DNA of 64,000 nt from Cantharellus purpuraceus (lineage: Eukaryota > Basidiomycota > Agaricomycetes > Cantharellales > Hydnaceae). The notes below the pieces were generated by a model. That model had not been told where the DNA came from and searched no databases. It was given only the letters and a program-made list of their open reading frames with translations. Where the stretch lies: positions 186,001 to 250,000 of the forward strand of contig JALBUN010000010.1 of the NCBI GenBank assembly GCA_025174535.1, in the 5' to 3' direction. The translations under genes were made by a program, and so were the position numbers. This document shows positions 7,150 to 47,292 of this stretch, piece after piece. The stretch's first letter is position 1; each line of letters opens with the position of its first letter.

Positions 7150-8781
7150 CTATTTTTTTTGGTCCGTCGCTTTAACGTCGGACTTGTCCGTCGTGGCATT
7201 GGTGGCACGGCCCTTTGCCTTTGCTGCAGACAAGGTTGCCTTGTTGCAATCCTTGGCTTGGTGACCAGGCTTTCCACAGAACAGACAGAGGTTGTTGTCC
7301 ATGCGGTGCTGGCGTTCCTGCGGGGTGAGTTTTCCGTCCTTTCCCAGCTTGGTGGAGAGGTCCAGAGTACTCTTGCGAGCTCCGGAGTTATTGCTGGTGC
7401 CGGAATTGTTCTGACCAGAACCGGAAGCGGCAGCGTTACCAGTGTTTGACTTCTGGCCTGAGTTGGCGGTGGCCTGCTTATCAGACCCCTTGTTGGACTT
7501 TGGGGTCTTGTCTGACATTTTGTCTGATTTGTTGTTAGCCGAGTTCTCGTGGGAGACCTCGGATTGATGTTCCCAATAACGGGCGTCGATGCATTGGGCG
7601 AGCTTGCGGAGGGTAGCCAAAGTATCCGGCTTACTGACGCGTGATATCTCGTCCTTGATGCGGGATGGGAGTCCAACGTAAAATTGGCGTTGGAGTGCGG
7701 CGTTGCCCCATTGGACTTTCAGGGCCAGCTGCTGGAAACTCACAATGTATTTTGCGATTTTGTGATTTTCCTTCATCTGAAGTCGATCGAGTTCGTTCTC
7801 GGCATCGGCCTTGGGGTTATAAGGGCCAAAATTGGTCCGAAGTTCGGAGATGAAGTCGGAGTAGTCCTCTGACGAGTTATTGCTGGTGCCGGAATTGTTC
7901 TGACTGGAACCAGAAGCAGCAGCATTACCAGTGTTTGACTTCTGGCCTGAGTTGGCGGTGGTCCTCTTATTGGACCCCTTGTTGGACTTTGGGGTCTTGT
8001 CTGATGATTTGTCTGATTTGTTGTTGGCCAAATTTTTGCAGGAGACCTCGGATTGACGTTCCCAATAATGGGTGTCAATGGATTGGGTGAGCTTGGGAAG
8101 GGTAACCAAAGTATCCAGCTTACCAATGCATGATATCTCATCCTTGATGTGGGATGGGAGACCAACGTAAAATTGGCATCAGAGTGCAGCGTCGCCCCAT
8201 TGGACTTTCGGAGCTAGCTGCTGGAAACTCACAATGTATTTCACGATTTTGTGATTTTCCTTCATCCAAAGTTGATCGAGTTTGTTCTTGGCATCAGCCT
8301 TGGGGTTGTAAGGACCGAAATTGGTCCAAAGTTCAGAGACGAAGTTGGAGTAGTCCTCTGACCATATTGGGTCATCGGAGTCATCCATGAGTGCTGGCTC
8401 AAAGTAGTCCAGTGCAGTGCCCTTGAGATAGGACATGGCAAAGGTGACCTTCGCCTGATCAGATGTGAACGCGTTGGGGCGGTTGTGGAAATTCAACCGG
8501 CATTGCACCAAGAACGGCTGGAGCATTCACGGATCGGAGCCATCGAAGGGGTCGGGTTCTCAGACCTTGGTCCAGGACTTAGGAGCTTGTGGGTTACGGA
8601 TGCTGCTGGCGAGCAGGGAGATGGCTTGCGCCAGATTTGGAGAGGGCGGGGTGTCATCTTCTTCATTGACGGCCTCTATGTGGTCCGTCAGTTCTTCAAC
8701 GACCTCGGGGATGGTGTTGATGCTGGGAGCGGGCACCTCAACGGTTTGTGCGCGTTCAGAATTGGCAGTGGATCGTGGCAT
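7150..8781 (-). pseudogene. Element A gag with CCHC zinc knuckle and an internal duplication
   Basis: The likely start is the ATG at 8781 (MPRSTANSE), 33 nt inside the right LTR. The capsid-like part includes KVTFAMSYLKGTALDYF. The C-terminal part holds the zinc knuckle CLFCGKPGHQAKDC at about 7290-7245. Stops occur at 8560-8562, 8527-8529 and near 8180, the first two as TGA for conserved Arg. A 489-bp stretch of the capsid and Asn/Ser-rich linker is present twice in tandem and in frame, making this gag longer than that of element B. Confidence 0.85.
7385..8362. repeat. 489-bp in-frame tandem duplication within gag
   Basis: Unit 7385-7873 is repeated at 7874-8362, starting GAGTTATTGCTGG and ending CCTCTGAC in both. 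489 bp is 163 codons, so the frame is kept. The units have diverged by scattered substitutions, many of them C/T or G/A, so the duplication is not an assembly copy. Confidence 0.9.
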
Positions 8782-28440: not shown

Positions 28441-30051
28441 TTAGTACTTTGTATAGCCTCCTTTGGCTTCTACTACAGCAGAAATTCTTCTAGGCATACT
28501 CTCAATTAGTCCTTGACATACCTCTACTCCTATTTTTCCCCATTTATCTTGTACTCTCTCCCAAAGTTTCAAAATTCCCTGAGGGGATGTCTCATACTCT
28601 GCTAGCCTTCTCTTCAGGTGATTCCACAGGTATTCAATGGGATTAAGGTCTGGTGATTGTGCAGGCCATAGGAGGACTTGGAAATTATGGTCTTTGAACC
28701 AGTCTTGAGCCTTTTACAGATGTGTTTTGGATCACTGTCCTGTTGAAAGATGATGCATGGAGTCTTGCCATAATATGAAAGGCTGCGTTGGAGTTCATCC
28801 TCCAGAATCTTGATGTAAAGGTCTCCATCCATCCTCCCATCTATCTTGCATCCATCCCCAACTCCCTCCCACAGCATACAGCCCCATATCATCAAGGATC
28901 CTCCTCCAAACTTCAGGGTTCCCTCCACTAATCAGTCACTCAATCCCTCTCCTGTCTTTTTCCACACCCATTTCTTGCCATCTGCCCCAAGCAATTGATT
29001 TTGGTCTCATCTGACTGAGCAACCTTCTTCCAGTCCTCCAAAGTCCAGTACTGATGACTTATGGCAAAGTCTAGCCTCTCCTTTCTGTAATGGTGGGTGA
29101 GCCCTGGCCTTTTCTTCTTCACCACAGCCTTCATTCCAACTCTCTTCAAGCCAATCCTCACTGTTTGTGTTGAGAGAGGTTGGTTGATGACATCCTGAAG
29201 TGCTTTAGTGGCCTGGACAGCATTTTCAGCTCTGCCAGAGCTAATAAGACAAAGAGCATGGTGAATATTAGTATCTGAAAGTTTGTTTGGACAACCACCA
29301 GGAGGCTTTGGAAGATGGGATGAGTGTTTAGAGTGTAGTCTGGAGATAGTAGCATTGGATACACCTGTTAAATGCTGAGATTCTATTGAAGTTTCAATGG
29401 GGTAACCGGAGTTTGGATGCTAGTGATGAAGGGAAGGGGACTTTACTGTTCCAGTTCAACTGGGACAGAATGGGGCAATAACTATTGAGTTAGATCAAGT
29501 GGACTTGGCTTCAACTTGTGTTGCACTCCCTTGGATTGTCGGTCCAATATTTTGGAGTTTGGAGTACAAAGTTGGATCAAGGATCTGGAGTTTGACTTGT
29601 CAAGAAGGTACTTGTCAAGAAGCTAGCAACCAAGAAGTTGATAGGGAAAATTTGGTCGATATACGAACTACTGTAATAGACAGAGAGTAGCCTGTATAAG
29701 TATGTGGGGAATTGAATGATGAAACTAAAAACAATAAGACAATAGGATGGATATGAAGTACAACATGAAAAGGAGTTCAGAGTTTGGATCCAAGTCCAAA
29801 CTAAACTAAGCAATATAAAAGAAGAAGGTTTGTTGTAACCCATAAGAAGAAACTACTTATAAGGAAAACAATAATGGAGTTTGGGGTTGACAGAGGTGGA
29901 GTTGACGGAGAATGGAGATGGAGATCTGGAGATTGGACTTGGTATTACAGGATGTAACAACACCAGTCTGGGATGAGATTTGATAGCCTGAGATGCCTGA
30001 ATCAAGGAGGGAAAGGATATGAGTCTGTAGAGAGGGAGACAGAGGCTTCAT
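28441..30051 (-). pseudogene. Tc1-like DDE transposase, broken
   Basis: N-terminal helix-turn-helix MKPLSPSLQTHILSLLDSG and GYQISSQTGV (30051-29965), then the insert, then SNATISRLHSKHSSHLPKPPGG, a second DNA-binding part (VRIGLKRVGMKAVVKKKRP), and the catalytic core: SDETKIN (first Asp), QQDSDPKH (second Asp), SPDLNPIEYLW (Glu), a DD34E arrangement. The tail is IESMPRRI and EAKGGYTKY with TAA at 28441. Two single-nucleotide frameshifts (near 28725 and 28975) and a TGA in the GLSD-LVEG segment add to the LTR insertion. Confidence 0.9.
29366..29959 (-). repeat. Solo LTR, family F, inside the mariner transposase
   Basis: 594 bp in reverse orientation, TGTTAAATGC to GGATGTAACA, flanked by ACACC at 29361-29365 and 29960-29964. 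Excising it with one ACACC rejoins the transposase at QTGV-SNATIS. The family matches the LTRs of element B, so that family was active after the mariner insertion. Confidence 0.93.
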
Positions 30052-30415
30052 GATGATGTAGAGTAGATCAACAAGTTGTTATGGTCTATTTGGCTATTGT
30101 TCAAGAATCATGTGACATAAAGGAATCATTATATGCCAAATACGCCACAACAGGTACTGTCTGGAGGTCCACAAAAGCAGATCCTCAGTTACAGATCAGC
30201 CAGCCAAAAAACTGTTTCAATGATATGACCAAATGTTTCCATATCTCTATCAGATCACACCCAATCAACATGATTCAACAAATGTCTTGAAGATAAGATG
30301 CATTATATGCATTACTATATACAGTAATATTTTGGATATTTTATCAAATTTATTTGTTAGGTTATGGCACTGTAAAGTCAAAACAAGCAAACATTGAAAC
30401 AGTTTTTTGAGTCAC

Positions 30416-31390
30416 TGTATATGTATCTACAGCATTCCCTTATGGAATGCTACTTCTTGGTAGCTATATATGCCCATGGTGTGCATATATACAGTCATAA
30501 TATAATCAGTGGACTCAAGTATACATGTGGGTCCATGTGTAGTAGAACAACTTAGATTTAACCACACCACTGTTGCACATAGCACAACTAATAAACCTTG
30601 GTTGAGTTCTGTGTTGGTGTGAACTAAGTCACACATCTTACACATTTTTGAACTTCCACAGGAAGAATCAGTTGATTCTTCCTTCTTATTGAAGTTTTCT
30701 AGCCAGTGCTAGAAAACCAGCTGTTGCTGGTGTACAGATGTATACCAACCCCTCCAGTTGCTCACACAAGTGAGCAACTAGTAAACTAACTTAGTTAGTC
30801 TACAGAAGCAGAAGAGAAGGAGTCATCATAATGATGAGTCAAAGCAGAGCAAGTTGTGCTGGTAGTGCCCAGGACATCATAAATGATGAACAGTGGCACA
30901 TAGCCAGCAGTAGAAGCTCCCATGAAGGGGAGCTAGATCCTAGATAGGGACTTCTCATCAGAAAGACTCTAGGAGAGAGTCATTGCAGTCATGAGACCAC
31001 ACAGATGATTGTACAATAGATCGTCTGTCAAACAAGAACCTCTTGTCGAGTGGTTCTTTAGTAAGAAAAGAAACAAGGAGACAGCTGGGAACTGCCTCCA
31101 ACATTCCTAAAGGGAAGGAATGTGCTTGAGAGATGAGCACAAGTAGAAGTAGCAATACTTCTATCAGGGCATTGCACAGCATGGAGCAGTATGAAACTCA
31201 CCGGTCAATTGCAAGATTGACTGAGCAAATCATGTGCAATCAGCATGAGATGAAGAGCATTAGTGAAGCTAGTGCTCAGGCAGCCAAGATGGCCACCATA
31301 GCGGAACATGCTGCCACCACTATGGGGCAGCAAATCACAGAGCTGGGAACAATGTTAAAATTGCTCCAAGAAAGCTCTGAGCAACACAAG
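30416..31390 (+). mobile_element. Fragment of element C: LTR, leader and gag start
   Basis: 30416-30642 aligns with the element C LTR (family G) and ends TTACA; 30643-31390 aligns with the leader and the start of gag (frame STSRSSNTS, RSIARLTEQIM, MGQQITELGTMLKLLQESSEQHK). It stops where an LTR of family H begins. It keeps many of the short inverted repeats seen in the full copy. The left edge abuts the mariner end. Confidence 0.85.
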
Positions 31391-31888
31391 TGTATGGGAA
31401 CTGGTTTTCCCTGAAAAGATCTTGTTTATGGTCCTGAAATTGTATATTTTCGCTTTATGGCCATAAAATATCAGCATATACATGCTGCTTTGTCTTGATT
31501 TGGGGTCATTCAAATATTCTCTATTTTTTCATATTTTTTTTGGGAATTTTCCATGCAGAAATGGAAACACAAATGTATTGTCCTGCTGGGTGAAGTTTTG
31601 GACCCACATGGACCCACAAAACTTCGCAGATGTCAGCAGTTTCAAAGTCAGCAGAGTCACCTGATCTACTGACTCATTTTCAATCACATGACTCATTTCA
31701 ATCTCTGACCCAATCTGATTACCGTTGCCAGTAAATACTCAATATCTTGGCAACCACAGCTCCTCCTGACTCCATTTTTGGTGGAGCTTTCAATCAAAGC
31801 TGTGCCTACCCATAGCTGTGCTGATCAGCGTGTGTAATGGGGTATTTCCCAAGTTATTTGAGTAATAGTGACTCATGCTATGACTCTT
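31391..31888 (+). repeat. Fragment of LTR family H
   Basis: Begins TGTATGGGAACTGG like the complete solo LTR at 51102 and aligns for about 500 bp, including TGACTCA motifs. It is cut at 31888 by an LTR of family A. The 5 bases before it are ACAAG; the other side is lost. Confidence 0.85.
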
Positions 31889-32553
31889 TGTTATGACTAT
31901 ATTTATTAACACTCAGATCCCTGCACACATAAAATCTATACTCTATATGGAAACCATCACGTCTCCAATTATCTGTCTGATTGTCACCGTCAATCTCGCC
32001 CATCTGTCTCCAGTTCCGATTGATGCATCAGCATCACCATAGGAACCCAGACATCCATCCCTGTCAGACTTGGACATACTCATGTAAGGCTGTCGGCCTT
32101 GGAGACCCATCACCGGAGTAATTATTATTAGATTTCAAATATGTATTCAAGTTGCCCGACTGGGGACTTCATTCCCCAGTTTGAATATTGAATCACGCCT
32201 AGTTCCTAAGTCCAATCCTAACTATCTAAGTTGTACTCTGTCTCCAAAGTCTCAGACACTGGTATTAGTGAGGGCACAGCACATAAGCTGAAGCCAAGTC
32301 CATTCCGACCTCCACGATGTACCCTGATTCCCACTCCAACTCCAACCCCAACTCCAACCCAATCTCCAACCCAATCTCCAACCCAATCTCCAACCCAATC
32401 TCCAACCCAATCTCCAACCCAATCTCCAACCCAATCTCCAACCCAATCTCCAACCCAATCTCTGACCCCCAATTGGACCTAGTGCATAACAGTATATTTG
32501 AACTGCCATACTCACTCCTACCAATGCCACAATCCACTGCCAATTCCGAATGC
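31889..32553 (+). mobile_element. LTR of family A with the start of its gag leader
   Basis: 31889-32491 is an LTR (TGTTATGACT to GTGCATAACA) of the element A family in forward orientation, with about ten copies of a 12-bp repeat (TCTCCAACCCAA) at 32355-32462. 32492-32553 matches the element A leader and the first gag codons (MPQSTANSE), so this is the 5' end of a second family A element. It is cut by an LTR of family D. Confidence 0.88.
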
Positions 32554-36595: not shown

Positions 36596-38059
36596 TTGAC
36601 ACTCCAACTCACCTCTGATCTCATCCCCTTAACTCCAATCTCAACCCTAGTGGACTCTGGTTCCACTCATTGTTTCCTTGACTCTTTGTTTGTCTCTGGA
36701 CATCATCTCCAGACTGAAGACATCACTCCAATTCCATTACAGCTCTTCAATGGATCCTCTAACTCTGTTATTAAATCCACAATTGACTTGCCACTCCATT
36801 TTCCTATGGGAGAAACCCACTCCATTACTTTTTATATAACTCCATTGGATGTTAGTTGCTTGGCGGTTTTGGGATACAACTGGCTCACCCACTACAATTC
36901 ATTGATTGACTGGGCATTGGGTAGTATCTCATTCCAAACTCCAATAGAGACTAAATCCTTGGTGCCATCCGAGTTAGTAGCATCAGCTCCACTCAACTCC
37001 ATAACTCTGTCTCTGCTTGTTGCTCTGAAAATTGCTTTTGTCAATGTGGCAACCTTTGCCTGTGACTCTTTGTGAGCTGACATACAAACATTCAAGTTGT
37101 TCATCTCCTCAACAGTTCCAAAGAACTCCAAGGACCCTCCAGTTGACATGAAGAATGTTCCAACCAAATATCATGAATTCACAGACATCTTTAGCAAAAC
37201 TCATGCTGACACCCTACCCACTCACAAGCTGTATGATTTGAAGATTGATGGAACATCTCCTCCTTTTGGTCCAATCTACTCCTTGTCTCAGAGCAAACTC
37301 CAGGCTCTTTGAGAATTCATTGATGAGCATCTATCTTATGGTTTCATCTGGTCAACCTGATCTCCAGGTGGCACTCCAGTCCTTTTCATTTGGAAAAAAG
37401 ATGGCTCCCTCCAACTCTGTGTTGATTTCAGGGGCCTCAATAAAATCACCAAAAAAGACCATTATCCACTTCCTTGCACCTCCAATCTTCTTGACAGTCC
37501 TAGGAAGGCTTGATTCTTCACTAAAATTGATCTCTGGCATGCTTACCATCTTGTCTGGATTCATGAAGGTGATAAATGGAAGACTGCATTTTGCACTTGC
37601 TATGACTCATTCGAGTGGTGCATTAGGCCCTTTGGACTTACCAATGCTCTGGCAGCATTCCAGTGTCTTATGAATGACATCTTCTCTGACCTCCTGGATA
37701 TATGCATCCTCATGTACTTGGATGATATCCTGATATACTCTGACAACTCCAAAGAACACAGCAACCATGTCCGTGAAGTCCTTCTCTGACTTCAGAAGTA
37801 TAAGCTGTATGCTTGAGCCAACAAATGTTCTTTCCATGAGAGCATGGTCAAGTACCTCAGATATATTATCTCCAAATGGACTTACTATGAACTCCAGCAA
37901 AGTCCAGATGATACAAGATTGGCCAGAACCCCACAAAGTCAAAGATGTGCAATCCTTCTTAGGTTTTGCCAACTTCTATAGGCATTTCATATTCAACTAC
38001 TCTGATCTCACAGTTCCAGTAACTTGTTTGACTCATAAAGGAACTCCACGGGAGTTCTC
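36596..38059 (+). pseudogene. Element B protease and reverse transcriptase
   Basis: Protease motif STLVDSGSTHCFLDSLF at 36640-36690 and VLGYNWLTHYNSLIDWALG. RT has [42 protein letters not shown], the catalytic YLDD ([13 protein letters not shown]) and FLGFANFYRHFI. Many stops and frame changes. The solo LTR G follows at 38060. Confidence 0.85.
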
Positions 38060-38308
38060 TGTTATTTGAGTGTCTTAGTTCACACCGTTACACAGAACTC
38101 AACCAAGTGTATTGGTTAGGTGCTGTATAGTGTGGTAGTTACTCAGTTCTGTCTACTATAAGTGGACCCACATGCATACTGGGTCCACTGGCTTACATAA
38201 TAACTATACATATGCACCCTATGGGTGCATATATCTACCAAGAGGATAGCATTCCTTAAGGGAATGCTGCATATATGTTATAGTAAGTAAGTACCTTGGG
38301 TACTTACA
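38060..38308 (-). repeat. Solo LTR, family G (element C type), inside element B
   Basis: 249 bp, TGTTATTTGAG to GGTACTTACA, flanked by TTCTC (38055-38059 and 38309-38313). It is the reverse of the element C LTR. It contains three compact inverted repeats, for example around the GGGTGCAT motif at 38215-38232. Confidence 0.92.
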
Positions 38309-38792
38309 TTCTCAGACTCCTGCTGGACATTCTTCAAAATGTTCAAGAGAGCTTTCATCACAGCTCTGGTCTTATTGCAATGGAACCCAGGATCTCTATT
38401 CATTGTAGAAGCTGATGCCTCCAACTATGCACTGGCAGTCATTCTATCAACCATCTCTCCAACAGACAATGAGGTTCATCCAATAGCTTTCTATTCCTGG
38501 ACTTTCACTCCAGCAGAACTCAACTATGATGTCCATGATAAAGAACTACTTGCAATCTTTGAAGCTTTCAAGTCCTGGTGACATTACCTCAAAGGATCTC
38601 CAACTCCAGTCAATGTCATCACAGACCACAAGAACCTTGAATACTTTTTGACTACCAAACTCCTTACATGGCAGCAAGCCCACTGGTCCGAATTCCTGTC
38701 CCAATTTGATCTGGTAATCTGTTTCCGTCCTGGCAAACTTGGTACAAAACCAGACTCGTTAACTAGACAATGGGATGTCTATCCTAAAGAGG
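38309..38792 (+). pseudogene. Element B RNase H
   Basis: Resumes after the solo LTR with [56 protein letters not shown] and [17 protein letters not shown], the connection to integrase. Homologous to 5141-5600 of element A. Confidence 0.85.
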
Positions 38793-39408
38793 TGTTAAGG
38801 GCTGGGAAACTCAGGGTTCAATGGAATAACTGGAGTTTAGCTGCTAGTAAGAAGGGGAGGGGACTTTACTGTTCCAGTTCAACCAGAGACAGAATGGGAC
38901 AATAACTATTGAGTCAGATTGAGTGGACTTGGCTTCAACTTATGTGTTGCACCCCCTCAGATCATTGGTCCAATATTTTGGAGTTCAGAGTATGGAGTTG
39001 AATCAAGGATCTGGAGTTTGACTTGTCAAGAAAGTACTTGTCAAGAAGCTAGCAACCAAGAAGTTAATGGGGCAAATCTTAGTTGATATATGAACTACTG
39101 TGATAGACAGAGAGTAGCCCGTATAAGTATGTGGAGAATTAAATGATGAGACTAAAAGCAATAAGACAATAAGATGGATATGGAGTACAACACAGAAAGG
39201 AGTTTGAAGTTCAGACCCAAGTCCAAACTAAATTAAGCAATATAAAAGAAGAAGGTTTGTTGTAACCCATAAGAAGAAACTACTTATAAGGAGAACAATA
39301 ATGGAGTTTGGTGTTGATGGACATGGAGTTGATGGAGAATAGAGATGAAGGAGATGGAGAATGGAGATGAAGATCCAGAGATTGGACTTGGTGTTACAGG
39401 ATGTAACA
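38793..39408 (-). repeat. Solo LTR, family F, inside element B
   Basis: 616 bp in reverse orientation, TGTTAAGGGC to GGATGTAACA, flanked by AGAGG (38788-38792 and 39409-39413). It sits between RNase H and integrase; the frame rejoins at WDVYPK. Same family as element B's own LTRs. Confidence 0.93.
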
Positions 39409-40114
39409 AGAGGGAGGAAATGATTATGCAGCAGTAAATCCCCATGATCTTAGGCCTGTGTTCACTAATGAACAGTTAACTGCTTCCCTCCAAGCAATGA
39501 TGTTCTACTCTCCAGTCCTCTGAGCAGCCATCACTATGGACATTGATACACTCCACTCCAATATCCGATCCACACTCTGATCAGATCCATCCATCTCTGG
39601 ACATCTCATTAAACTGACCAATTGCTGGTCCATTGACCTGGAAGGCTTACTCCATCTCAACAACCACATCTACATTCCCAATGTGAACAATCTCCAACTC
39701 TGTGTACTCCAGAAAAAACATGACCATCCAATCTCTGGTCATTTTGGACAGAACCAAACTATAGATCTAGTCAGGTGAGACTATGTCTGGTCTGAACTCC
39801 ATGGTTCCTTTAAGTCCTACATCAAGTCTTGTACCACTTGTATGCACTCAAAGTCACAGGGACATCATCCTTATGGACTACTCAAGCAACTTCCCATTCT
39901 GGAGAGTCTGTGGAACTCCATATCCATGGACTTCATTGAGAAGCTCCCAGTATCCTCCAGTTACAACACCATCTTAGTTATTGTGGATCACCTCACCAAG
40001 CAGTCCAAACTCCATTTCACCTCTAAATACCATTCGGAAGCCGATGGACAAACTGAACGAATGAACCAGACTCTGGAACAGTACCTCCAAGTCTATTGCA
40101 ACTACCAATAGGAC
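39409..40114 (+). pseudogene. Element B integrase, cut by element C
   Basis: Reads DYAAVNPHDLRPVFTNEQL, LNNHIYIPN, HDHPISGHFGQNQTIDLV, CTTCMHSKSQGHHPYGLLKQLP, SISMDFIEKLP, VIVDHLTK, then a shortened core and EADGQTERMNQTLEQYLQVYCNYQ. About 60 codons of the catalytic core are deleted between VDHLTKQS and LHFTSKYH. Element C starts at 40115. Confidence 0.85.
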
Positions 40115-40391
40115 TGTTGAAAAATAATTTCGCCTTGCTGGGAGTGTGTGGAGAGTAGATTAATTAGTGTATGCAGCATTCCATTAAGGAATGCTGTCTT
40201 CTTGATAGATATATGCACCCTATGGGTGCATATGTATAGTTATTATATAAGCCAGTGGACCCAAGTACACATGTGGGTCCACATATAGGAGACAGAAAAC
40301 TTAGTAACTACCACACTGTACAGCACATCACCCAACCAATACACTTGGTTGAGTTCTATGCAACGGTGTGAACTAAGACACCCAATTAACA
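40115..40391 (+). repeat. 5' LTR of element C (family G)
   Basis: 277 bp from TGTTGAAAAA to CCAATTAACA. The last 220 bp align with the solo LTR at 38060-38308 and the fragment at 30416; the first 55 bp differ, so the 5' end may be a distinct subtype or a rearranged end. Imperfect or perfect hairpins at 40157-40177, 40206-40230 and 40255-40280. Confidence 0.78.
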
Positions 40392-40582
40392 CTTTTTTGA
40401 ACTTCCAAAGGAAGAATCAATTGATTCTTCCTCATTATTGAAGTTTTCTAGTCAATACTAGAAAACCAGCTGTTGCTGGTGTACAGATGTATACCAACCC
40501 CCCCAGTCGCTCATATAAGTGAGCAATTAGTAGACTAACTTAATTAGCCTACAAAGATAAGAGAAAGAAAGGAGTCATCATA

Positions 40583-42700
40583 ATGATGACTCGCAGTAGA
40601 GTGAGTTGTGCTGGCAGCGCACAGGACATCATAAATGATGAACGGCAGCATGTAGCCAGCAGCAGAAGCTCCCAGGAAGGGAAGCTAGACCCTAGAGAAG
40701 TCGCAGGGACTTCTCATAAGGAAGACTCTAGAAGAGAGTCACTGCAATTGAGACCACACAGATGATTGCACAATAGATCATCTGTCGAACAAGAACCCTT
40801 CATCTAGTGGTTCTTTGATTAGAGAAGAAAGGAGGAGACAGTCATCTACTGTCTCTAACGCTCCTAAAGGAAAGGAACATGCTCAATATACAAGCACAAG
40901 TAGAAGTAGCAATACTTCTACTAGGGAATCATGTAGCATGGAGCGGTGTGAAACCTACAGGTCAATCGCAAGATTGACTGAACAACTCATGCATAATCAA
41001 CATGAGATGAAGAGCATTAGCAAAGCTAGTGCTCAGGCAGCTAAGATGGCTGCTGAAGCAGGGCATGCTGCCACTACTATGGGGCAGCAAATAGCAGAGC
41101 TAGGAATGATGTTAAAATTGCTCCAAGAGAACTCTGAGCGACACAAGTTGTGTCACCAAAGATCAGATTCTCGACAAGAATCTGAATCCAGAGAGTCTGG
41201 ACCTCCCCAGGGTGAGAGGGTCCAACCGAATGATTGGTTAGACAGAGGAAATGAAATTCCCCCAATGGAGGGAATTAGAGACCCAGTAATCCCTGTGAGG
41301 CAAGGATTACCAATCCAGATTGAAGAGGAAACTCCTCAATCTATGGCAAAGGAGCTCAATCAAGAGATCAAGCTATGGAAACAATGAGAAGTTGAGGCTT
41401 CTTGTAAACATAGATTAGCCCTTGAACAGAAGGCTAAACATGCAGAGCAGGAACTTGGCCAGATGTTTAGAGAGCAGCGGCCCCAGCAAGAACTCAAATG
41501 TGGCTGTTGATTTAAATTGACAGTCATGACATGCACTGAACAGTTATCAGTGTGTGCAAGTGGTGGGCCTTTCAGGAGACACCCACCATGAGCAACAAGA
41601 TACCCAATGGATGCCTTGAGAAGACGTTCCCCATAACAGAGAACAATCAGCGCCATTGACCTCAGAAGGTCAAGGCATACCAGATCAATTGGGCACAATT
41701 GATCCTATTGACAGCATTACTCGCATGGTGTGAGTAGCCATAGTTGATAATAGAGATACAGACCCAGAGACATCTGTACTTGCCAAGGTGGACATTAAAG
41801 TATCGCCTCCTGAGCAATACACAGGAGGTGCAGATCTTGAAGAGTTCAAGATCTTTGTAGTAGGCATGCTATGATGGCTGAAGATGAACAATCTCCTAAG
41901 GCCATCAAGTACAAAGTTTCAACTATTGTACTTAAACACTCACCTTAAAGGTGAGGCCCAGGAATGGTTTTACAGGAATGTAGAACACTATGACAGGGTA
42001 GTCTAAGACTGGACCCTGGAAACTGCAATCCTTGGATTGCAGTGTAGATTCCTACACACTCTAATGCATCACCATGCATCAAATAAGTTTGACTCTGTAA
42101 TAGAGGGTCAAAGGACCATTCACAAATTAATGAATGGCCTAGATAAGTATGCGGGTCGCATGATAATGCCACTGGATGTGTACATGTACAGGAAGAGGTT
42201 TGTAACTGCAATGCATGAACCTCTGAGACAAGAAGTCCTCAAGAAGGGCCTCAATGCCGAATTTAGCAGTATCAAGCAGTTGTATGAAACTGCTTGAATG
42301 ATAGAGGAAGTGACACGATACCACCACAGTATGTAATGCCTGGAGAACATGACTAACACGTCCTCCTCAACCCATAGACCAGCAGTCAATAGAACTACTG
42401 GCATGATGAATATGGGGAGTCAACCCACACCCCAAGGACATGTGTATACGGCTCCCAACACACACTCACAACAAGTGAGTGTGTCAAGGTTGGAACCCTA
42501 TAATGGAAGCTCCAGGTCCAATTCCAACAATTACCTTTTCAAGGGTAATTATCAATTGAAACCACCAGCACACATGAGTGGTGATCGATTGAACAACATT
42601 ACTAGTAATGTTGTGTGCTACGAATGTGGCCAGACAGGTCACATGCAACCTAGCTGCCCCAAATTACAGGGCAACATAAGGGCGGCTGCAGTCTGAAAGG
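40583..42700 (+). pseudogene. Element C leader peptide and gag
   Basis: A 60-codon frame (MMTRSRVSCAGSAQDIIND) precedes the main gag frame, which starts near 40815. That frame has RSIARLTEQLMHNQHEMKSI and MGQQIAELGMMLKLLQ (a helical, probably oligomerising region), KVSPPEQYTGGADLEEFKIF, the capsid-like NTHLKGEAQEWFYRNVEHYD and FVTAMHEPLRQEVLKKG, and the zinc knuckle VCYECGQTGHMQPSCPKLQ at 42615-42666. Several TGA stops. Confidence 0.82.
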
Positions 42701-43059
42701 ATGTGTCCTCACACATAGTGGAGGATAAGGTAGATGGATTCTCCCCAATAGAGGGAGAACATGAAGAAGCAATGGATGATCCCAAGGACCATCTAGATGA
42801 AAAAGTATCAGCTATAGACGTGGCTGACGAATGGGATGAGGAGGTCACCCCATACAAATGGGACGACCAAGATGACACCCCTGAAAGGGAGGCTATGCCA
42901 ATGTATCACTCTAATGCGATACAAATTTGACCCAATGATCAAATTCCACCAAGACATACCTATGCAGTGCATTTCTGTAGTGCAACAAGATTCCTGAGAA
43001 GCAGGGAATCATGACAACTACATATAGCTGCTGTCAGTGTCAACAGATCAGCCAAACCT

Positions 43060-43923
43060 ATGTATAATCATAAGAGCCAACAGAAGTCGACAGCGCAACC
43101 AGATAGACCATGCATAGACAACAAAACAATCTCTGGGTATTGGGAGATTGGGGGAACACTAGCCCATTGTCTATTAGACAGTGGAAGCGAGGGGATAATG
43201 ATCCCCCCTGAGTTCACACATGTGACAGGTATGAAGACATTTGCGCTAGAGCAACCCATTGTACTGCAATTAGCATGCATTGGGAGCAGGAGTACCATAA
43301 ATTATGGTACTCACACTACCATAAAGTTTGGTAGTTGGAACATTGAAGAGTATTTCAATGTCACCAACATTGAGTATTACGATGTAATACTTGGTACCCT
43401 ATTCCTATGAAAGCTAGGAATATGCCTGGACTTTAAGGGCCCAGGCCAAATCATGATGGAAACTGAAGAAGTCCTCACCAATGGAGAGCATAATACCAAT
43501 GCTCTTCATACCCCATCATGGGGTATAAACTCAATACAAAGAAAGAGTGTTGGCATGAATAAATGATGCCAAGGGGGTAACTCTAAACACGAGCTACCCA
43601 CAACGCATTCCTTCCTAAAAGAAGGACTAGACTCAGTAAAGGACCCCCCAATGGAGGATCCAAATAAGAGCATGATGCGAATAGCTTTGTCTTGTGAAGG
43701 ATCAACCACTTACACAGCTGGTCAGATCCCTCAGTTGAGGGATCAATGGAAAGAAAAGTACGCTGACCTATTTGGCAGCATACCCTTAGAAGTTACCCCA
43801 TTTAGGGAAGTTAACCACAAGATTAATCTTGTGGATCCTGACAAGCGAATACATTATCGCTTGCCTAAGTGTCCAGAGCACTACCAAGCAGAACTTTCAG
43901 AGCCTTGGTCACCTAATAGATGA
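43060..43923 (+). pseudogene. Element C protease and RT N-terminus
   Basis: Retropepsin motif AHCLLDSGSEGIMIPPEF near 43160-43215, then NVTNIEYYDVILGTLFL. RT begins with LRDQWKEKYADLFG and NHKINLVDPDKRIHYRLPKCP and stops at about 43920; the rest of the fingers and palm, including the catalytic Asp pair, is deleted. Confidence 0.82.
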
Positions 43924-43984
43924 CCAAGGCATGCACACAGATGATGATAAAATGCAGCAAATATGAGAATGGAGATGACCTAGG

Positions 43985-44595
43985 TCATACCACAAAGTCC
44001 AACATTTTCTTGGACTAGTGCAGTATCTGGCATACTATATGCCAGACATAACTGCATACACAACCCCATTATTGGGTTGTGCTCGTAATAATCATCCGTT
44101 CTTATGGACACCACTGCTGGAGAAATGCTTCAAAAGCATTAAACTCCTAGCATGTAGGGCTCCATTATTGAAGCCCATCGATGTCAATAACCCCAATACT
44201 ATTTGGGTTATTACTGATGGCTCCAAAACTGGAGTTGGAGCTGTCTATGGACAAGGAAAAGATTGGCAGACCTATCCAAGAAATTTAGTGCTGCACAACA
44301 GCACTATAAGACCCATGAGCACAAGACTATAGCTGTGCTCAAAGCCCTAATGAGATGGGAAGATAAGCTACTAGGATGAAAGTTCATCCTAGTAACTGAC
44401 CACAAGGGTCTTGAATACTTTGAGACCCAAAAGAACCTGTCTCCTAGACAGATTGGGTGGTGGGAGTTCTTATCCCATTTCAACTTCACCACCCTGCATA
44501 TAGATGGGGTAGAGAACAAAGTAGCGGATTGTCTATCACTACTATGCTGATGACACCCCAACAGAGAGTCATTCCAACTACATCCATGTGAGTGC
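43985..44595 (+). pseudogene. Element C RNase H
   Basis: Resumes at HKVQHFLGLVQYLAYYMPDI, TPLLGCARNNHPF, then RNase H: ITDGSKTGVGAVYGQG, HEHKTIAVLKALMRWE, FILVTDHKGLEYFET, LHIDGVENKVADCLS. One frame break lies near 44290. It ends at YIHVSA where the family D LTR starts. Confidence 0.82.
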
Positions 44596-47292
44596 TGACA
44601 AGCCAGGATGCATCGAGGACGTATATCAAACCACTCTGACAGTCCAACTCCACCAGCGTCTTTTCATATCAAACTTTTAAATAGTGCTGCAACTCCCTCT
44701 CCACCTCAGTCTCTAATTCTAGCCATCAATCGTCACTTGTGTTTCATCGCCATCAATCATTATCAGCCTTCTATTCACACCGATCCTTTCATAATCATTC
44801 ACATGGCTTGCAATTCTATTCCTCTCTCCAACATCTCTTCTAATAATACGTCACACTGGTCTCTGGACACAGAGGACTATCAAAAATACACTGAGCTCCA
44901 CAGGCATGTTAAGCCACCTCCACATGTCAAAATACTTCCAAAACTCTTTCAACATCCAAGATCCCCACCATGTCTCTCTTATGCCATTGGCAATCCCATA
45001 TTCTTTCATGATTCTGTTGAACATTCCTCAGCATTTCACCTCTATATTGTAACACGGACAGAAGAGTCAAACATCAGGTAGAGTTTCAGTCACCATCACC
45101 GACCTACCCCCCACTTCAATCCGACTCAGGTTACATCGTGTCAGGCAAAGGGACCGAATACCCTTGGAATGGTGCTGACTGAAGTCCTCATGTGACTCAG
45201 GGTCGATTTACCTTCGGAGCTGTAGGGAAGATGATATTGGTGGATGTTTCTATTGTTCTTTTATATGACTCACCCCTGTTTCATCTTGCAATTCATTCAC
45301 ATGGCTTACTCATCCTTGTTCTATTTTTGGTTCTTTTATTACTCATCACCTCCTATTCTTACAAAGATTACCCCTATCTGTTCATTTCATTTCTCCATGA
45401 TTTCCCCATTAGTAGTTCAACTTCACATGCTTGATCAGCTGGCTTGATCAGCATTTCTTGCATCATATCACATCATTTGCTCCTCATATTGTGTCATTGT
45501 TCCCTGGGGATTTGTATATAAAAGGGCGCTAGTTTTTGCCTTTTAGATCAATCAACAGGTTTTCAGCCAATGCTCTAAAGTCAAAGTCCATGCTCTAAGT
45601 CTACACTCTATGCTCTACATCACAATCACTGAGGCAAAGCACCTTGGTTCAATGATCAGATTTCCCTCTGCCACCGAGAGGTCGCATCTCCTGAAACCAG
45701 CTTTCACATACCTCTCAACCAGGCCCCCCATCATCCTCCAGTCACAGAGCACGATCTACCATTTTGACCATCCTTTTCACTCCCCATCATCCTCCAGTCC
45801 CAGAGTACTATAAATTGGCCCAACAGCACCCTCTTCATTCACCCTCACCAGACACAGAGCACTATTACACTTACCCATACTCAGCGCTACCCCTTGGCCT
45901 GACAGTTCTTTGGCATACTGAACAACTGCATTACACACCATCTGTTTGCTAGGACTGTTGCACTGTTGGTTTGCTTATGGAATAGATCCTATAAGCCTGC
46001 GCGCAACGGTCCTAGCAAACAGATGGTGTGTAATGCAGTTGTTCAGCATGCCAAAGAACAATCAGGTCAAGGGGTAGGGGTAGCACTGAGTAATGGGTAA
46101 GTGTAATAGTGCTCTGTGGTTGGAGGAGGATGGGGAGTGAAAAGGATGGTCCAGATGGTTGATCGTGCTCTATGACTGGATGACAATGGGGAGCCTGGTT
46201 GGGAGGTACACGAAAGCTGGTTTCAGGAGATGCAACCTCTTGGTGGTGGAGGGAAATCTAATCATTGAACCAAGGTGCTTTGCCTTAGTGTAGAGCTGAT
46301 GGATTGTGATGTAGAGCGTAGAGCGTAGACTTAGAGTGTGGACTTTGACTTTAGAGCATTAGCTGAAAACTTGTTGATTGATCTAAAAGGCAAAAACTAG
46401 CGCCCTTTTATATACAAATCCCCAGGGAACAATGACACAATATGAGGAGCAAATGATGTGATATGATGCAAGAAATGCTGATCAAGCCAGCTGATCAAGC
46501 ATGTGAAGTTGAACTACTAATGGGGAAATCATGGAGAAATGAAATGAACAGATAGGGGTAATCTTTGTAAGAATAGGAGGTGATGAGTAATAAAAGAACC
46601 AAAAATAGAACAAGGATGAGTAAGCCATGTGAATGAATTGCAAGATGAAACAGGGGTGAGTCATATAAAAGAACAATAGAAACATCCACCAATATCATCT
46701 TCCCTATGGCTCTGAAGATAAATTGACCCTGAGTCACATGAGGACTTAGTCAGCAACCACAACAAATACTCCTTATTGTCTTAGTGATATGTCTCCATAT
46801 GGTATCCCATTCCAAGGGTATTTGGTCCCTTTGCCTGACATGATGTAACCTGAGTCAGATTGAAGTGGGAGGATAGGTCGGCGATGGCGACTGAAACTCT
46901 ACCTCACATTTGACTTGTCAAGGAATGTATATGGTTCAACGGAATCATGAAAGAATATAGGATCGCCAATGGCATAAGAGAGACATGGTGGGGATCTTGG
47001 ATGTTGAAAGAGTTTTGGAAGTATTTTGACATGTGGAGGTGGCTTAACATGCCCATGGAGCTCAGCATATTTTTGATAGTCCTCTGTGTCCAGAGACCAG
47101 TGTGATGTATTATTAGAAGAGATGTTGGAATTAGAGACTGAGGTGGAGAGGGAATTGAAGTGCTATTTAAAAGTTTGATATGAAAAGATGCTGGTGGAGT
47201 TGGACTGTCAGAGTGGTTCGATATACATCCTCGATGCGTCCTGGCTCATCAGCACACAGGCTTATAGGATCTATTCCATAAGCAAACCAACA
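44596..47292 (+). repeat. LTR of family D (copy 1) interrupted by copy 2
   Basis: Forward copy starting TGACAAGCCAGG at 44596. It runs to 45963, is broken by copy 2, and resumes at 47256 with ACAGGCTTATAGG to end CAAACCAACA at 47292. About 1.4 kb without the insert. A TATA box (TATATAAAAGG) sits near 45515. No clean duplication flanks the whole, since the left flank is element C and the right flank is the 3' end of element B; a deletion probably joined them. Confidence 0.82.
45964..47251 (-). repeat. Solo LTR, family D (copy 2), inserted in copy 1 in reverse
   Basis: 1288 bp from TGTTGGTTTGC to GGCTCATCA, flanked by the 4-bp duplication GCAC (45960-45963 and 47252-47255). Removing it restores the 3' end of copy 1. 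It lacks about 110 bp present in copies 1 and 3. Because it lies in reverse directly beside copy 1, the two form a 1.3 kb inverted repeat. Confidence 0.85.

Follow-up and report, generated by a model that had tools for sequence, protein, structure and literature searches.

Short perfect hairpins tile a Ty3-type long terminal repeat retrotransposon family of Cantharellus purpuraceus, and some of their loops are inverted between copies

Ordered RNA structure on the scale of the genome is known from RNA viruses, as are dispersed packaging signals, with many local hairpins across coding RNA. Where template switching takes place between the arms of a repeat, homogenised arms and an inverted spacer are its published traces (PMC8604942, PMC8794818). 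Palindromes within a long terminal repeat (LTR) retrotransposon have been described in plant Sireviruses, according to the accessible text of that study (PMC2829016). Here we analyzed 64,000 nt of the Cantharellus purpuraceus genome (the window; contig JALBUN010000010.1, positions 186,001 to 250,000 of the forward strand), in which positions 40161..44598 (+) are occupied by element C, a truncated and decayed copy of a Ty3-type LTR retrotransposon. The element is filled with short perfect hairpins, coding sequence included, and at some of them the loop is inverted between copies. The element belongs to a known group, and its hairpin-tiled organisation is, as far as we have seen, undescribed.

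Density and anatomy of the hairpins

An initial annotation of this DNA had described positions 40115 to 44595 as packed with short perfect inverted repeats, even in coding sequence, and had counted more than 40 stems of 7 bp or longer. Counting perfect, nonoverlapping inverted repeats with a stem of at least 7 bp and a loop of at most 12 nt, we found 56 in this interval, whereas 100 dinucleotide shuffles averaged 3.18 and never exceeded 9. Stems of at least 8, 9, and 10 bp numbered 33, 22, and 14, against shuffle means of 0.82, 0.18, and 0.08. The gag-protease frame (41749-43869) contained 24 repeats (mean of 2.1 and maximum of 8 in 300 codon-preserving shuffles), and the N-terminal part of gag (40716-41386) contained 11 (mean of 1.0 and maximum of 5 in 200 such shuffles). 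Together, the dinucleotide and codon-preserving shuffles rule out chance, base composition, and codon usage as the cause. All 12 repeats quoted in the annotation were present, and two were longer than described (40409-40432, 12 bp; 42272-42297, 10 bp).

Elsewhere in the window, outside 40001-44000, 2-kb bins held 0 to 4 inverted repeats, with the exception of 30001-32000 (14 repeats), 38001-40000 (7 repeats), and 44001-46000 (8 repeats). These three bins are raised largely because sequence of the same family lies there; 12 of the 14 repeats in the first fall in a family fragment at 30430-31391, and 4 of the 7 in the second fall in a solo LTR at 38060-38308. Positions 44595-46500 had no inverted repeats. 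Over the window and 23 loci, the repeat density was 11.5 per kb in family sequence and 1.57 per kb in all other sequence, the latter value including some unrecognised family pieces. The density is clearly higher than in shuffled sequence and, with the rest of the window used for comparison in place of the two neighboring elements (A and B) named in the annotation, than in the surrounding DNA.

The annotated interval is hairpin-rich throughout, but its bounds are not those of the element. In 6 of 20 loci, the match to the family begins at 40161, the furthest end of any match is 44598 with the query extending to 44610, and in other copies the family continues for about 2.7 kb past the end of element C. 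This 3' extension is also hairpin dense (28 and 33 inverted repeats, versus 2.5 and 1.8 expected). A stretch of 4490 nt read from locus L022, running from reverse transcriptase (RT) to the 3' part, had 58 hairpin axes, two of them within an inserted element.

Next, we compared 24 rows of copies, all from one genome; the window, locus L044, and 20 retrieved loci supplied them. Hairpin axes recur across these rows, which bears out the annotation in other family members. Stems of at least 7 bp were found at 107 axes, 91 of which had them in at least two rows, and removal of overlaps left 88 axes covering 1987 of 4438 nt. The span is 20 to 26 nt at 66 of the 88 axes, the loop ranges from 0 to 12 nt, and the excess is gone beyond about 30 nt; the hairpin tile is about 22 nt long, with a stem of about 8 bp around a variable loop. 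At non-CpG columns, majority states paired in 246 of 255 cases at spans 13-19, a value that partly reflects stem selection, in about half at spans 23-25, and at background (about a fifth) at spans 28-30. The hairpin sequences are unlike one another. Individual hairpins, which have no assigned strand, are as follows; perfect inverted repeats and palindromes are from the repeat count, and differences among copies are from the rows.

40174..40196: perfect inverted repeat, 9 bp
40211..40233: hairpin, 10 bp, loop TAT (3 rows); ATA in other copies (5 rows)
40255..40282: perfect inverted repeat, 9 bp
40409..40432: perfect palindrome, 12 bp
40443..40466: perfect inverted repeat, 10 bp; one pair altered on both sides in the second subfamily
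40572..40592: perfect inverted repeat, 10 bp
40758..40785: perfect inverted repeat, 9 bp
40899..40922: perfect inverted repeat, 10 bp
41163..41185: perfect inverted repeat, 9 bp
41683..41704: perfect inverted repeat, 9 bp
41832..41854: perfect inverted repeat, 10 bp
42022..42043: hairpin, 10 bp, loop TT (3 rows); AA in most other copies (15 rows)
42062..42081: hairpin in row L026.1, loop inverted in L034; outside the 88 axes
42272..42297: perfect inverted repeat, 10 bp
42460..42484: perfect inverted repeat, 10 bp
42593..42614: perfect palindrome, 11 bp
43163..43185: hairpin spanning the DSG codons of the protease active site; axis in 21 rows
43290..43312: perfect inverted repeat, 11 bp, first of five consecutive protease hairpins
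43508..43526: perfect inverted repeat, 9 bp
43725..43744: perfect inverted repeat, 9 bp
43815..43834: perfect palindrome, 10 bp
43902..43930: perfect inverted repeat, 10 bp
44026..44046: perfect inverted repeat, 9 bp
44369..44394: perfect inverted repeat, 12 bp

The active-site hairpin at 43163-43185 reaches 11 bp in other copies and has no perfect 7-bp stem in element C itself.

Loop inversions, variants, and strands

We scored a loop as inverted under a strict rule, by which the two forms had to be exact reverse complements, involve a transversion, and each be present in at least two rows. At axis 40222, 3 rows have the loop TAT and 5 have ATA; at axis 42032, 15 have AA and 3 have TT. The arms are essentially unchanged. 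Strict inversions were thus found at 2 of 88 hairpin axes, versus 0 of about 8376 other axes (p = 1e-4). Loop inversion between relatives at perfect repeats is a signature of template switching, and its presence here lends direct support to a suggestion in the annotation that a replication process copies the stems. A looser scan, which accepted single rows, gave three more inversions at hairpins: 42072 (in L034) and, in the L022 sequence that supplies RT and the 3' part, R526 and R4061. At R526, the commonest loop needs one more transition, and R4061 is covered by two rows. Beyond these two cases, the looser scan of the L022 stretch gave only half-step shadows of them. Other candidates were rejected. 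Axis 41513, a third one picked up by the strict rule, differs by transitions only, possibly from CpG decay, and the seeming inversions of an LTR hairpin (GTAAGTACC...) and of a palindromic repeat reflect opposite orientation, as the strand of the loci shows.

The history of the arms was read from variants among the copies. The visible paired differences are mostly CpG decay, in which both arms ancestrally had CG, and one arm now has TG where the other has CA. A strong covariation signal (77 paired cells, 29 pairs) was therefore rejected as being mostly CG decay in both arms to TG/CA or CA/TG. With CpG-type columns removed, there were 5 double changes in 8305 stem cells, compared with 2.8 expected (p = 0.16), and the pair was kept in 5 of 5, compared with 15 of 36 in control pairs. 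Once those columns are left out, the stem covariation that the annotation had proposed to look for gives no clear excess of double changes. Copies in L021-L040 carry CpG-type decay and are split by nested insertions; the decay suggests past cytosine methylation.

Arms and remaining sequence differed in which variants they carried. At non-CpG columns, private variants (single row) affected 166 of 1207 arm columns and 317 of 2122 others, and 367 of 2000 mask rotations were as low; shared variants (at least two rows) affected 58 of 1207 and 184 of 2122, and 0 of 2000 rotations were as low. Private variants are taken to be mostly damage after insertion, and shared variants are mostly inherited from active elements. 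Because the arms are poor in shared but not in private variants, they appear to have been conserved while the element was alive and neglected afterwards. Fixed differences from the second subfamily, which is known from two rows, numbered 11 of 301 in arms versus 53 of 496 in the rest (p = 2.6e-4). This held for the noncoding LTR and leader (7 of 188 versus 28 of 262, p = 0.007) and for gag (4 of 113 versus 25 of 234, p = 0.02). Divergence was 0.026 in arms and 0.042 outside them without CpG columns and 0.061 and 0.108 with them.

We then examined wobble pairs and strand preference. Majority states at spans 8-24 comprised 500 Watson-Crick pairs, 6 G-T, 26 A-C, and 41 of other kinds. Where a stem had a single fixed internal mismatch, it was G-T in 4 cases, A-C in 9, and of another kind in 6; inherited one-sided changes gave 16, 17, and 7, and private ones gave 46, 54, and 46. 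No preference for G-U over A-C was seen in fixed mismatches or inherited one-sided changes among these stems, which were picked as Watson-Crick runs. An A-C excess at stem ends was discarded as a candidate, being present in element C (19 to 8) and L024 (20 to 8) and absent from the 3' parts of L022 (3 to 5) and L037 (6 to 5). Folding z scores against shuffles were -5.7 for the sense strand of element C (the mean of seven 300-nt windows) and -5.0 for its antisense strand, -5.7 and -6.3 for the 3' part of L022, and -0.6 and -0.5 for the two strands of an outgroup. The sense strand does not fold better than the antisense strand in either element C or the 3' part of L022. Given the missing G-U preference and the similar folding of the two strands, the data fit exact copying, or a requirement placed on single-stranded DNA, better than one placed on sense RNA alone. 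The "string of hairpins" envisaged in the annotation agrees with these data; packaging or escape from silencing, as a pure sense-RNA function, is disfavored on the same two grounds.

The element, its family, and a hairpin-free neighbor

Element C is truncated at its 5' end inside the LTR and at its 3' end after RNase H. The following features were assigned in the window.

40161..40391, + strand: LTR part of element C; matches the solo LTR at 38060-38308 and LTR pieces in L026, L027, and L033
40716..41386, + strand: gag N-terminal coding region
41749..43869, + strand: gag-protease frame with in-frame stops
42613..42663, + strand: gag zinc knuckle (zf-CCHC; Pfam PF00098, E 9.9e-6)
43144..43395, + strand: aspartyl protease, containing YDVILG and the DSG motif (Pfam Asp_protease_2, E 3e-4, below cut-off)
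43902, + strand: junction at which, by comparison with other copies, about 535 bp of the RT region is missing
44105..44553, + strand: RNase H region in two frames (Pfam RT_RNaseH_2, E 5e-5, below cut-off)
30430..31391, + strand: 5' fragment of the second subfamily, 81.5% identical, with hairpins at many of the same places
38060..38308, - strand: solo LTR of the family, with 4 inverted repeats of 8-10 bp

Relative to other LTR copies, about the first 25-50 nt of the LTR are absent from element C. Integrase is wholly absent from it, and RT, RNase H, and integrase are present in L022 and L028; combining the three gives the order protease, RT, RNase H, and integrase of a Ty3-type element, with the LTR part of element C and the solo LTR pieces supplying the terminal repeats. 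The L022 counterpart of the RNase H region matches Pfam RT_RNaseH at 1.2e-18, and a protein search with the protease gave 252 homologues at E <= 0.001. L022 also has a weak chromodomain match (Pfam Chromo, E 0.0037, below cut-off). Downstream of the chromodomain, the family has an extra frame (L022 559-1023, - strand; L037 2869-3729, - strand) with no Pfam match above cut-off. The deletion of about 535 bp links the middle of hairpin R526 to the first base of hairpin R1078, as if the template had jumped from hairpin to hairpin.

In the genome (40.15 Mb, 50 contigs), at least 46 pieces at about 40 places match a 1-kb family probe; 40 of 170 candidates were scored, and a few of the places look like duplicates of one another. 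No DNA of relatives was found in IMG/VR and GTDB contigs. Protease relatives, among the 120 matches listed of the 252, come mostly from metagenomes, with a few from Ramaria and Gautieria, among them records of Ramaria rubella and Gautieria morchelliformis. Other repeats were seen as well. A 14-bp perfect palindrome, ATTCTGATGTATAT, with a 3-nt loop occurs at L032 9293-9323, L033 5562-5592, L035 5021-5051, L037 7990-8020, and L038 7593-7623 and is probably the core of another repeat. Outside the family, L030 has at 8517-8601 a perfect inverted repeat whose stem is 38 bp and whose loop is 9 nt, and units of the CCAATCTCCAAC type are repeated in tandem at window positions 32330-32470.

The nearest other Ty3 family found in the genome is about 40% identical in protease and has long open frames; in L041 (366-3000), these still span gag, protease, RT, and RNase H. 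Its pieces L041 and L042 have 2 and 1 inverted repeats, compared with 2.1 and 1.9 expected. Over 89 residues, the element C protease aligns to this hairpin-free family with two compensating 2-residue gaps, and codons identical between the two number 25 of 50 in arms and 12 of 36 elsewhere. This near-ungapped alignment and the identity of arm codons imply that the hairpins of the protease arose by substitution, without cost to conserved residues. In the hairpin at 43163-43185, one arm holds the active-site codons and the other encodes His-Cys, which is kept in 108 of 109 protease relatives listed (the commonest forms; 119 examined), with AHCLLDSG in 83. His-Cys before DSG is absent in the hairpin-free family, and in the relatives, judged from their protein sequences, it may be a protein-level trace of the hairpin. 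For the 120 listed relatives, of which 72 to 120 were usable for a given hairpin, we asked whether their residues would still allow the hairpin to be encoded; they do so better than with slid geometry in 6 of 7 cases, the exception being 43127. Swapping arms between relatives produced little change and no consistent direction, so this test reflects homology and not covariation.

Origin of the hairpins and comparison with described systems

We propose, with moderate confidence, that the hairpins form in single-stranded replication intermediates, that template switching makes or mends them, and that selection keeps them. Hairpins would form in single-stranded DNA (or RNA) during reverse transcription, and the polymerase of the element would occasionally switch template to the opposite arm. 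Such a switch would turn the two arms into exact complements, mend arms that had drifted, and sometimes leave the loop inverted. Purifying selection on the folded replication intermediate, for compaction, protection, or packaging, may then keep the tiles, with synonymous and tolerated codons recruited to build them. We favor this combination because neutral arm conversion alone should not, by our reasoning, halve inherited change and because selection on sense RNA alone explains neither the inversions nor the missing wobble preference. A bolder form, which we offer tentatively, is that of a self-palindromising retroelement, whose replication would both need and produce an element-wide array of one-size hairpins in single-stranded cDNA, a second structural code written by template switching over the protein code. 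If the favored combination is right, one replication error mode, copying from the other hairpin arm, would have shaped a whole gene set, with the result kept by selection, and a fold of the LTR retrotransposon replication intermediate would be indicated that, as far as we have seen, is undescribed. The many copies of the family would let the creation, maintenance, and decay of perfect hairpins be followed, a matter that bears on how RNA and DNA structure evolves.

Selection acting on the sense genomic RNA alone, with dispersed hairpins that bind Gag for packaging or that shield the RNA from small-RNA silencing or antisense pairing, would account for RNA folding far beyond chance and for the scarcity of inherited variants in arms, noncoding parts included. 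A size of about 22 nt is ordinary for RNA hairpins. Furthermore, a review allows for a contribution to Ty packaging from RNA sites dispersed beyond the main packaging regions (PMC4974528). However, G-U is not enriched over A-C, the antisense strand folds about equally well, the loops vary from 0 to 12 nt with no common motif noticed by eye, and selection alone leaves the inverted loops unexplained; as the whole explanation, it is therefore unlikely. The converse is a pure mutational ratchet, by which RT switches at any chance stem and functionless hairpins accumulate wherever the proteins tolerate them. The loop inversions, the Watson-Crick stems without wobble or strand preference, the sharp size limit, the private variants that are no rarer in arms, and the hairpin-free L041 and L042 all agree with it. 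Against this, inherited arm changes are about halved, which by our reasoning is not expected under unbiased arm conversion, 40 of 40 inherited arm variant types at non-CpG columns are one-sided, and arm codons are not less conserved than others. We regard the ratchet on its own as improbable.

LTR retrotransposons reportedly target palindromes, and the hairpins might act in double-stranded DNA, for example, as binding sites or as landing sites for nested insertions. One of 10 insertions with overlaps of 5-9 bp resembling target site duplications lies within 1 nt of an axis, but the other 9 are 4-46 nt from the nearest one, so we rejected the aiming of nested insertions at hairpin centers; with hairpin sequences that also differ from one another, this explanation is very improbable. 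Palindromic mobile units exist in other systems, and many small ones might have been inserted into an ordinary element. The units here share no common sequence, though, and the protease frame is not interrupted, aligning to the hairpin-free family with only its two compensating gaps, which makes this origin scarcely credible.

Several points weigh against the combination of template switching and selection that we favor. Only two inversions have both loop forms in at least two rows. Of the three rows with TT at 42032, L026 and L027 share extents and lie 15 kb apart; they are probably one insertion duplicated, leaving two TT rows. In element C, the looser scan also flags 8 nonhairpin axes, of which two are 1 and 3 nt from a hairpin axis and the others 9-35 nt away. 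If arm conversion were active, compensatory double changes should be more numerous than the 5 seen (2.8 expected) and the one found between subfamilies. A homogenising process might itself mimic conservation of repeats, so selection is not proven; conservation of repeat regions has been reported in bacteria, in the accessible part of that work (PMC8604942). The choice of stems as Watson-Crick runs hides G-U-containing stems. A host polymerase, and not RT, may have made the switches. One piece of the other family, L043, has 7 repeats where 2.2 are expected; four of the 7 lie in flanking sequence ahead of the coding frame. Finally, all DNA comparisons come from one species.

We know of no hairpin-tiled Ty3-type element, and none of such organisation was found among the titles and abstracts listed in searches of open full texts, at most 20 papers of up to 647 hits per search. 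The family resembles Ty3-type LTR retrotransposons (Metaviridae), and chromovirus-like ones in particular, in its LTR, zinc knuckle, protease, RNase H, RT, integrase, and weak chromodomain, and it is set apart from them by its hairpin tiling, which the nearest other family found in the genome lacks. It shares with RNA virus genomes the many local hairpins, but its stems are perfect Watson-Crick stems of one narrow size, without G-U preference, and its two strands fold nearly equally. Plant Sireviruses likewise have palindromes within an LTR retrotransposon; in the accessible text, these are motifs that recur close to the ENV gene and within the LTR, most of them built on a CGG-CCG core (PMC2829016), whereas here unlike sequences run throughout the genes. 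Another match is template-switch mutation at inverted repeats in yeast genes (PMC8604942) and in rRNA and microRNA hairpins (PMC8794818), with similarly perfect arms, short spacers, and loop inversion. In the portions available, those cases are single scattered events, whereas here 88 recurrent hairpins of one narrow size lie within 4.4 kb of one element.

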